A stretch of DNA of 64,000 nucleotides from Geoalkalibacter subterraneus. GTDB lineage: Bacteria; Desulfobacterota; Desulfuromonadia; Desulfuromonadales; Geoalkalibacteraceae. A model generated the notes under the pieces. It searched no databases and had not been told where the DNA came from. It saw nothing but the letters and a program-made list of their open reading frames with translations. The DNA is taken from contig NZ_CP010311.1 of assembly GCF_000827125.1 (NCBI RefSeq), positions 2,687,001 through 2,751,000 on the forward strand. Reading direction: 5' to 3'. This document shows positions 54,366 to 57,956 of this stretch, in pieces (positions within the stretch are counted from its first letter, which is position 1; the number at the start of each line of letters is the position of its first letter). The position numbers and the translations under genes are program-made.

Positions 54366-55334
54366 TTAACGGGCTGCTTCTACAGACTCCTTCTTGAGCG
54401 GATATTTTTCCCTGAGTTCATTCGCCCAGGTTTCCAGCAGCGCATCGCGCTGCTTCTGTTCAAGGTCGGTCCGGATTTTATCTTCCATCTCGTCAAAGCG
54501 CATCTGGCGGGCTTCCTCGACAGCTGTAAGCATGATAATGTGGTAACCAAATCGGGTGCGAACGGGGTCGGAAATCTCTCCCGGCTGCATCTTAATCACC
54601 GCGTCTTCGAAGGCCTTGACCGTCTGCCCCTCATGAAAGGTCCCCAGATCTCCACCGACGAACCGCCGCTTGTCATCTGAGTTGAAATAGGCCAGATCGT
54701 AAAAATCCTCGCCCGCCCGGGCCCGCGCGGCCAATTCCTGCGCACGGGCATGCAGCTGTTCACGCTCCTGCTCATTGGCGGCAGGGTCAACCTTGATCAG
54801 GATATGGCTGGCCTGAAACTGACGCGGCCGGAAGAATCTCTCTTTGTTCTCTTCGTAGTAAGCTTCTACCTGCCTGTCACTGACATCGATCCTGCCTTGC
54901 AGGTAGGCCTGTTCAGCCTGCTGAGCCAGCAGACCGCGGTAAACCCAGGCTCGAAGACTAGCGTACACATCATCCCCCACAGCCGACTTCATCTCATCGA
55001 CCGACGAATAACCACGCATGAACGGTTTCATGGCTTCCTCGATGCGGGCAGTCTCAACGGCAATCTCATGATCCCGGGCCCAGTTGACCCTGTAGGCCCG
55101 CTCAATCAGTTCATCCAGGTTTTTCTGCCTGATCTCCGCCATCCTGTCAGATGAAACTTTTCCATGGAAGCCCACCTGCATCGGCATGCTGCGCTGCATC
55201 TGCAGGCTGAGTTCAAAATCGGAGATTTCCACTTCACCGACCTGCGCAATGACCGGAGACTGTGCCGCTACGGCATAAGAAATCAGCAAAAAAAAGAAAA
55301 GAATGGAAAAAAGAATTTTCAGATGGAATGACAT
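54366..55334 (-). CDS. Secreted parvulin-type peptidyl-prolyl isomerase
   Basis: 322 aa. A signal peptide (HLKILFSILFFFLLISYAVA) ends in AVAA-Q, a SurA-like N-terminal helical region (about 30-165) follows, and the parvulin domain is at about 172-270 (FQASHILIKVDP...GGDLGTFHEGQTVKAFEDAVIKMQPGEISDPVRTRFGYHIIML). Its likely role is folding of exported proteins in the periplasm. It stands alone, with a terminator and a structured region upstream. Confidence 0.9.
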   Translation of the reverse strand: MSFHLKILFSILFFFLLISYAVAAQSPVIAQVGEVEISDFELSLQMQRSMPMQVGFHGKVSSDRMAEIRQKNLDELIERAYRVNWARDHEIAVETARIEEAMKPFMRGYSSVDEMKSAVGDDVYASLRAWVYRGLLAQQAEQAYLQGRIDVSDRQVEAYYEENKERFFRPRQFQASHILIKVDPAANEQEREQLHARAQELAARARAGEDFYDLAYFNSDDKRRFVGGDLGTFHEGQTVKAFEDAVIKMQPGEISDPVRTRFGYHIIMLTAVEEARQMRFDEMEDKIRTDLEQKQRDALLETWANELREKYPLKKESVEAAR

Positions 55335-55470
55335 GCAGAAACTTTCCTTCGCAGTGAGTGTGAAAAACCGTGTCAGCCGTTGAAGAACTGCAGGCTATTT
55401 CTCGATCCATGGGACCAGAAACAGAGACCAACGGTTAATACTCTCACAGAAAATGGCGCGAAGAAAAGGC

Positions 55471-55506
55471 AAAAAAAGTCCCGGTCCCCTTGGGGGAGGG
55501 ACCGGG
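55471..55506 (-). terminator. Strong intrinsic terminator upstream of the isomerase gene
   Basis: Minus strand: nine-base perfect stem CCCGGTCCC/GGGACCGGG with a nine-base loop, followed by AC and T7. It lies 137 bases before the isomerase start codon and ends the structured region 55507-55706. Confidence 0.85.
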
Positions 55507-55706
55507 CGATTGCAGACCTAGGGAGTTGGGGGGTGGTACGTTGCCACCCGATCGACGAAACAATTTCGCCTGGTCGGGTTGAGCGCTGAAGTCATCGCAA
55601 GTTGTTTGCAACGGGTATGCCTTCCAGTCGGCAAACCCTGAAAAAAGTCTAAAAGCTATTTGCAGAAGGGAGTTACAGCGCATCTGAGTCAAAAAGGGAG
55701 ATGCGC
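55507..55706 (-). ncRNA. Candidate structured RNA ending in a terminator
   Basis: Minus-strand hairpins in order: GCGCATCT/AGATGCGC (55678-55706); GGGTTTGCC/GGCATACCC with one mismatch (55613-55638); GTTG/CAAC; then CCCGA/TCGGG enclosing GGCGAAA/TTTCGTC; an overlapping GGGTGG/CCACCC hairpin; and a GCGAT/ATCGC pair that can close the whole block. It ends at the terminator 55471-55506. It matches no RNA family I can name. It may be a small RNA or an attenuated leader of the isomerase gene. Confidence 0.45.
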
Positions 55707-55805
55707 CGAGGGCTCATGTCCGCCTGCACTGCGGGGCAAATAACCTATATTTCGGCCCACCATCGGGGCATATGCCCCACCCGTGAAATCATTTCGCGGC
55801 AAAAA

Positions 55806-57215
55806 CTAATTGGAGGTTTCGTGCAGGCCGAATTTCTTCAACCGATAGCGCAGGGTATCGCGACTCATTTTGAGCAGGCGTGCTGCCCGGGTCTGGTTCC
55901 CCCCGGCACGCGCCATCGCCTGCTGCAACGCATGCTTTTCCATCTCTTCCAACGACATATCTTCCAGAAGCAGGTCAAAAGAGACTCCGCCCGGCCCGGC
56001 ATCCTGTCCCGGGCGATCCGCTTTTTCCGCACTCTGCTCTGCACGTACGGCCGCAGGAAGGCTGGCAACAGACAGAACCCGCCCCTGCTCAAGCATCATG
56101 GCCCGCTCAATAGCGTTGCGCAGTTCACGCACATTACCGGGCCAGTCATAGCGCATGAGCAGTTGCAGCGCGTCGGGCGCAATCCCTTCCAGTCGCCGAC
56201 CATACTCGTCGTTCAGACGGTCAATAAAATAGTCAACCAGCTTGGGGATATCGTCCCGACGGGAACGCAGCGCCGGCAGATGAATTGTCATAACATTGAG
56301 ACGATAAAAAAGATCTGCTCGAAACTTTTCCTTCTCGACCAGCCTGGGAAGATCCTGATGGGTTGCTGCAATGATGCGAACATCGACATCAATATCCTCT
56401 TTACCGCCCAGACGGCGAAAGCGCTTGGATTCGATGACCTTGAGGATCTTAGCCTGCATGGGCAAGGGCATGTCGCCGATCTCATCTAGAAAAACAGTCC
56501 CGCCGTCGGCAAGCTCGAAGGTCCCCTTCTCCTCGCGATGGGCATCGGTGAAAGCCCCACGCTCATGACCGAACAGTTCATTTTCCAGCAGGTTCTCAGG
56601 GATGGCCGCACAGTTGACTTCAATGAAAGGCTCCTGCTTGCGGGCACTGTGATGGTGAATCGCCTGCGCCACCAGTTCCTTACCCGTGCCGCTCTCTCCC
56701 AGGATCAGAACGCTTTTGACATCGCTCTCGGCGCAGATGTTGATCATCCTGAACACTTCAATCATCTGCGACGAATTGCCCACCAGCTGATCGCGACCGA
56801 ATTGCCGCCGCGCGCCGCGTGAGGAAGAATCAACCTGTGCCTCCAGGCGCTTTTTGTCAAAAGCCTGGCGGACCATCTGGTGGACGTCCTCCATGCGGAA
56901 AGGCTTCCCGATATAATCCAGCGCGCCGAGCTTGAAAGCGCTCACGGCAAAATCCGCCTGCGCGTTGGCGGTAATCATCAGCACCATCACTTCAGGGTCA
57001 GCCGCCTTGAAACGCTTTAGAAGCTCGATGCCGTCCATATCCGGCAGAAAGATATCAAGTAGAGCCAGGTGAGGGCGGAAGCTCTCAAACTTATCCAGCG
57101 CCTCGTTGCCGGACGCAGCCACTTCGACCTCGTAACCGGCGCCGGTAAGCATCTGCGCTAGAGACCACCCGATCAACTTTTCATCGTCCACGACCAGAAC
57201 ACGTTCGTGATTCAT
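55806..57215 (-). CDS. Sigma-54-dependent response regulator (NtrC family), orphan
   Basis: 469 aa from ATG 57215, nine bases after GGAGG. The receiver has D54 (ALLDIFLP). The AAA domain has GESGTGKE, Walker B VFLDEIGDM and a sigma-54 loop reading GAFTDA instead of GAFTGA, a known natural variant. The C-terminal Fis helix-turn-helix is KHALQQAMARAGGNQTRAARLLKM. No kinase gene is adjacent. Confidence 0.93.
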   Translation of the reverse strand: MNHERVLVVDDEKLIGWSLAQMLTGAGYEVEVAASGNEALDKFESFRPHLALLDIFLPDMDGIELLKRFKAADPEVMVLMITANAQADFAVSAFKLGALDYIGKPFRMEDVHQMVRQAFDKKRLEAQVDSSSRGARRQFGRDQLVGNSSQMIEVFRMINICAESDVKSVLILGESGTGKELVAQAIHHHSARKQEPFIEVNCAAIPENLLENELFGHERGAFTDAHREEKGTFELADGGTVFLDEIGDMPLPMQAKILKVIESKRFRRLGGKEDIDVDVRIIAATHQDLPRLVEKEKFRADLFYRLNVMTIHLPALRSRRDDIPKLVDYFIDRLNDEYGRRLEGIAPDALQLLMRYDWPGNVRELRNAIERAMMLEQGRVLSVASLPAAVRAEQSAEKADRPGQDAGPGGVSFDLLLEDMSLEEMEKHALQQAMARAGGNQTRAARLLKMSRDTLRYRLKKFGLHETSN

Positions 57216-57710: not shown

Positions 57711-57956
57711 ATGCTCATCAATGTTATGTACACTGACCATCGTTTCGACATGATCAAGGCCGATCGCCTGGAGGGATTTATCCGCAGAGGTGAGATCCTT
57801 AAATTCAAGCGCTCAACCGGCTGGGTCACCATCGGCATCGATCCCATACGTGAGAGCAGTCCTGCAAATCGTTCCCCTGTCCGAAAGGAACGCCGCCAGA
57901 TTGTCCAGACGGTCTACCCTGCGCAAACTGCTGCACAGCCATCTCAACATCTGTAG
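57711..57956 (+). CDS. GSU3473-family small protein
   Basis: 81 aa with AAAGGA seven bases upstream. The N-terminal part (MLINVMYTDHRFDMIKADRLEGFIRRGEILKFKRSTGWVTIGIDPIR) follows the pattern of the Geobacter GSU3473 family of unknown function. The polar C-terminal tail is variable. It precedes selC in the same direction. Confidence 0.7.
   Translation: MLINVMYTDHRFDMIKADRLEGFIRRGEILKFKRSTGWVTIGIDPIRESSPANRSPVRKERRQIVQTVYPAQTAAQPSQHL

Follow-up and report, generated by a model that had tools for sequence, protein, structure and literature searches.

In Desulfovibrio vulgaris, the regulator DVU0679 targets a small RNA (Dv_sRNA2) encoded directly behind its own gene, and expression of this RNA was seen on tiling arrays, as stated in passages of PMC3333781. 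DVU0653 of the same species likewise has a downstream non-coding RNA as its target, and both are among the sigma-54 regulators listed in a section of PMC4641369. In Vibrio, LuxO is an NtrC-type response regulator that activates the sigma-54 promoters of the Qrr small RNAs, according to part of PMC4878744.

Here, we analysed a stretch of 64,000 nt from the metal-reducing bacterium Geoalkalibacter subterraneus, called the window, and in it the gap between a sigma-54 regulator gene and a parvulin isomerase gene. The DNA signals in the gap suggest a free small RNA under the regulator, with a probable operator, a sigma-54-like promoter and a terminator. A short RNA encoded directly behind the regulator gene and controlled by its product is our preferred reading, at slightly less than even confidence, ahead of a tail of the regulator gene, a leader of the isomerase gene and a relic of a lost gene. 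The literature search found no paper naming both 'Geoalkalibacter subterraneus' and 'small RNA', and small-RNA regulation in this bacterial group is, to our knowledge, little charted.

The features are as follows, in window positions.

55806–57212, minus strand: response regulator with receiver, sigma-54 activation and Fis-type HTH domains (Pfam), loop GAFTDA
55765–55778, no strand assigned: palindrome GGGGCATATGCCCC, probable operator of the regulator from its recurrence near orthologues
55678–55706, minus strand: 8-bp hairpin GCGCATCT/AGATGCGC, z −4.7 (0/200 shuffles)
55607–55622, minus strand: sigma-54-like promoter AGGCATACCCGTTGCA (GG-N10-GC), score 0.86
55471–55596, minus strand: predicted RNA of about 125 nt, its start inferred from the sigma-54-like promoter
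55546–55579, minus strand: hairpin A in its full form, in the centroid structure only
55531–55549, minus strand: hairpin B, in the MFE structure only
55471–55506, minus strand: intrinsic terminator, a 10-bp stem with a 7-base loop, ACTTTTTTT
54366–55334, minus strand: SurA-like parvulin isomerase (open frame, Pfam), its ATG 136 nt past the T-run

The regulator and its putative operator

By Pfam, the regulator has the receiver, sigma-54 and HTH domains of the neighbouring regulator in a DVU0679-type arrangement. Its sigma-54 loop motif is GAFTDA, a variant of GAFTGA. Orthologues at 52–63% identity to it are encoded in 17 loci, where the loop is GAFTDA or GAYTDA in 13 and GAFTSA in two, the other two being missed by the pattern. 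A GAFTDA-bearing member appears among the sigma-54 regulators in a portion of PMC4641369. An open frame of 81 residues lies between tRNA-Sec and the regulator gene, on the strand opposite to the latter (57711–57956, plus strand).

The palindrome stands 27 nt past the regulator stop codon and has a single exact copy in its own genome. The element as a whole stands behind none of the 17 orthologous regulators, and the top blastn match there, 20 nt at E 0.02 in the locus L080, is this same palindrome. With up to two mismatches, nine sites occur in 8/17 orthologue loci, against a shuffle mean of 0.33 and with none of 40 rounds reaching nine. Such a site is present in 2/12 paralogue loci and 0/29 listed isomerase loci, and the remaining 9/17 orthologue loci are without one. 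With up to one mismatch, the respective counts are 4/17, 0/12 and 0/29.

One genus accounts for five of the eight positive loci, and a second genus, belonging to the same family, for two more. Because the loci share genera, they amount to less independent evidence than the number eight would suggest, namely two families besides that of the window. Aligned by eye, the sites have a common core, GTGGGGCATATGCCCCAC, that varies between them. A one-mismatch close variant is found in 87/98 genomes, and allowing two mismatches gives 13 sites in the own genome versus 10 for the backwards control. Therefore, only near-exact sites near the regulator are informative, and the own genome gives no sign of a wider regulon.

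The palindrome is probably the operator, or upstream activator site, of this regulator. Separately, the genome G015 has unusually many near-copies of it, 12 forward versus 2 for the backwards control, possibly a larger regulon.

Candidate promoter and contexts in relatives

On the minus strand, the sigma-54-like promoter follows the palindrome at a distance of 142 nt. Its score is reached by 19/1000 shuffles of the 430-nt gap, by 10/1000 for the first 250 nt and, among random stretches of 260 nt drawn from the window, by 0.7%, and these odds are flattering because the site was spotted by eye before the weights were written. It is one of four sites at 0.86 in the 64 kb on both strands. It departs from the consensus with AGG for TGG and has three mismatches to the consensus of a strict search, which allowed two and did not pick it up.

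Transcription from a sigma-54 promoter starts by convention about 12 nt past the promoter GC, so that the predicted RNA would begin at about 55596 and end at 55471. The original prediction had placed a 5′ end near 55710. The DNA signals would move the start to near 55596 and leave the first hairpin (55678–55706) outside the RNA, where it would sit between the operator and the promoter.

Cytochrome genes accompany the palindrome in several relatives. In L176, L177 and L179, the regulator gene and a divergent gene flank it, and the gene after the divergent one has 12 CxxCH motifs. Pfam assigns these two genes in L176 to NHL repeat and cytochrome c families, respectively. A 12-CxxCH gene is near the palindrome in L175 too, with no regulator within the stretch examined. 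In L166 of the genome G006, TGGCATCATGGTTGCA, a strong sigma-54 match with a score of 0.92, stands 99 nt past the palindrome, and a gene with four CxxCH motifs (cytochrome) is downstream of both.

A sigma-54 site of at least 0.86 lies within 260 nt of the palindrome in 3/14 inspected loci (L166, L169 and L174), where random stretches would give about 0.2 of 14 over both directions (0.8% per direction). Weaker partners of 0.75–0.81, each no better than a 5–20% chance, occur in L171, L172, L175, L176, L177 and L179, the genomes of L175, L176 and L179 being of one genus. No sigma-54 site above 0.74 was found in L168, L170, L173, L178 or L167, a near-match on a plasmid of the own genome. L174 (G012:C38:6500-10500) has a palindrome near-copy, followed after 187 nt by its 0.86 site and next by a frame that is TetR-like as judged by eye, which is a possible further target of the regulator.

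G006 has the order of regulator, cytochrome-like gene, operator, promoter and cytochrome gene (L080/L166). By analogy, the operator and promoter in the window may once have driven a cytochrome gene that has since been lost, with the remainder now decaying. The neighbourhood in the window is rearranged, the regulator and the gap standing between tRNA-Sec and the isomerase gene that are adjacent in four family members. However, an intact terminator follows, the gap's two longer open frames have no Pfam match and its sole protein-like piece is explained as coincidence. We regard such a relic as very improbable.

That piece is of nine residues at 55395–55425 (minus strand) and resembles a potassium-channel gene that is present in all five family members and for which the search gave no match in the own genome. 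A channel remnant at 55425–55395 was rejected as a coincidence, having been picked post hoc with a score that 4/300 shuffles reach. The rest of the gap scores 31, versus a shuffle mean of 33.

Terminator, folding and homology searches

A strong terminator at the minus-strand end had been claimed from the sequence, and a terminator is present at 55506–55471, with a G+C-rich stem and then a T-run from which termination is predicted. It is the sole site of the pattern scan in 54800–56400, a region whose shuffles average 1.7 such sites. A looser scan adds, 110 nt past the regulator stop, a hairpin that is weaker and has a T-run.

The claimed hairpins are present as well, except for a closing pair of GCGAT and ATCGC. 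These two strings occur (55598–55594 and 55510–55506) and are unpaired with each other in the MFE and centroid structures, and a closing helix of them does not form in the MFE of the predicted RNA either. Hairpins A and B are both weak and have four bases in common, and are mutually exclusive in the full form.

The original prediction further took the structure to be unusual, which the shuffles do not bear out. The whole stretch of 55471–55706 gave z −3.21 (0/200 shuffles) or −2.91 (1/200) in two runs, and z below −2.9 is found also in 2.9% of 385 background windows of 200 nt from roughly the first 19 kb and in 5.1% of 216 such windows from 20–64 kb. Without the terminator, the stretch has z −2.21 (5/200). 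With the 5′ hairpin removed too, it has z −1.15 (27/200), and the interior fold does not exceed the shuffles. The predicted RNA is not notably structured because its z is −1.5, and −0.19 once the terminator is removed. The hairpins and the terminator exist, and the structure overall is unremarkable.

An ordinary interior fold and a terminator between two same-strand genes also suit a plain 3′ untranslated tail, by which the regulator gene would end in its terminator and the isomerase gene would be insulated. The palindrome would then be an operator without a working promoter, or there by chance. This is rather unlikely in our estimation, as the palindrome recurs beside regulator orthologues and a sigma-54-like site stands at a fitting distance from it.

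As the original prediction had it, the stretch matches no known RNA family. The Rfam search found none at either threshold, and the best bacterial permissive match, RgsA (RF00628), had 11.9 bits versus a gathering score of 88.4, with E 1.6. A repeat or mobile element was rejected, with the stretch in single copy and without phage and plasmid matches. The exact 19 nt of hairpin B are absent from the viral contigs.

The original prediction looked to blastn for copies in relatives, where the short matches proved about as many as chance would give. At E ≤ 0.1, matches were in 14/97 relatives besides the own genome with about 10 expected, and two of the matches, both in G012 (L023 and L025), are palindrome copies. 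At E ≤ 0.01, they were in 6/394 other genomes of the phylum with about 4 expected, the two genome sets overlapping. The relatives searched include five of the window's family and none of the same genus. A covariance model built from one sequence entered twice had one match below E 1 in 39 other genomes, inside a coding frame that is presumably HypF-like.

The isomerase gene downstream

Isomerase orthologues are in at least 29 loci from 57 relatives searched, and a genome-contig scan with the isomerase gave 19 distant isomerases at 27–37% identity. Upstream of the 29 listed loci is tRNA-Asp-Val-Asp in 19, a lone tRNA-Asp at a contig end in one, a divergent tRNA-Sec in four, each from the family of the window, while the other five lack a tRNA there. 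The element is no leader conserved with the isomerase gene. The tRNA-Asp-Val-Asp linkage (L031–L043, L045, L047, L048, L050, L052 and L053) is absent in the window.

By a loose criterion and without shuffle control, 22/28 listed loci, L054 being left out, have a terminator-like hairpin 79–201 nt ahead of the point where the isomerase start aligns. This favours the untranslated tail with an insulating terminator, whereas the four tRNA-Sec family members are among the 6/28 without such a hairpin in that interval. Moreover, insulation is not general because in L044, L046 and L049 an upstream open frame comes within about 60 nt of the isomerase match.

Alternatively, the operator and the sigma-54 promoter might serve the isomerase gene, with the RNA from 55596 as a leader and the terminator partly read through. 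The promoter and the isomerase gene share strand and order, and the operator is near protein genes in relatives. No sigma-70 promoter stands out from shuffles in the 136 nt ahead of the isomerase. Folding of these bases can leave the Shine-Dalgarno region paired, covered by a 12-bp stem in 55342–55468 (minus strand, z −3.4 to −3.6). However, the operator is in none of the 29 listed isomerase loci of relatives, and none of the four family members has the strong Shine-Dalgarno fold. The unpaired fraction of the Shine-Dalgarno is 0.25 in the window, and 0.26–0.35 is also seen in relatives.

The sigma-70 scan fails equally before the regulator gene, and it is uninformative because shuffles match the best scores before all three, the isomerase (189/200), the element (188/200) and the regulator (150/200). 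A leader whose terminator gates the isomerase was one of two forms of the original prediction. No helix competes with the terminator in the MFE or centroid structure as an antiterminator, and no conservation is seen before the isomerase. What is left of this reading is quite improbable.

The proposed unit and its known counterparts

The other form of the original prediction, a free small RNA, gains from the probable operator and the sigma-54-like promoter and loses its structural argument. The analysis establishes the sequences and positions, the palindrome recurrence beside regulator orthologues and the terminator sequence. From these we infer that the regulator binds, that the promoter is active, that the RNA exists and how it would act.

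In the preferred reading of a regulator-controlled RNA, the activated regulator would dock on the palindrome at 55765–55778, and DNA looping would bring it to the sigma-54 polymerase at 55622–55607. Transcription would begin near 55596, and the terminator would halt the RNA about 125 nt on. The product would be a free non-coding RNA that may act by base-pairing. No homologue of the predicted RNA was found in any genome searched or behind the 17 orthologous regulators.

It is a doubtful extension that the regulator, with the operators of its orthologues beside multiheme cytochrome genes, here also drives a species-specific small RNA from a sigma-54 promoter as a post-transcriptional arm in the control of electron-transfer proteins in this electrode-respiring bacterium. 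The analysis offers a testable operator for a family of sigma-54 regulators whose genes, in relatives within the order, neighbour those of multiheme cytochromes, along with a candidate small RNA that would share this control. Should the RNA prove real, its targets could connect the respiration of metals and electrodes with regulation by small RNAs.

The terminator of the window shares a stem and a T-run with intrinsic terminators, its termination being predicted here. The better-known analogue of the unit is LuxO with the Qrr RNAs, for which the part of the source cited above gives several qrr genes and known targets, versus one predicted RNA here. Like DVU0679 and DVU0653, the window has a two-component sigma-54 regulator, with a putative binding site and a predicted non-coding target directly behind its own gene. 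In the cited passages on these two, by contrast, binding was measured for both and expression for DVU0679, and the likeness drawn here is one of arrangement. The arrangement is thus already known from a relative, and the window suggests a predicted further example of it.
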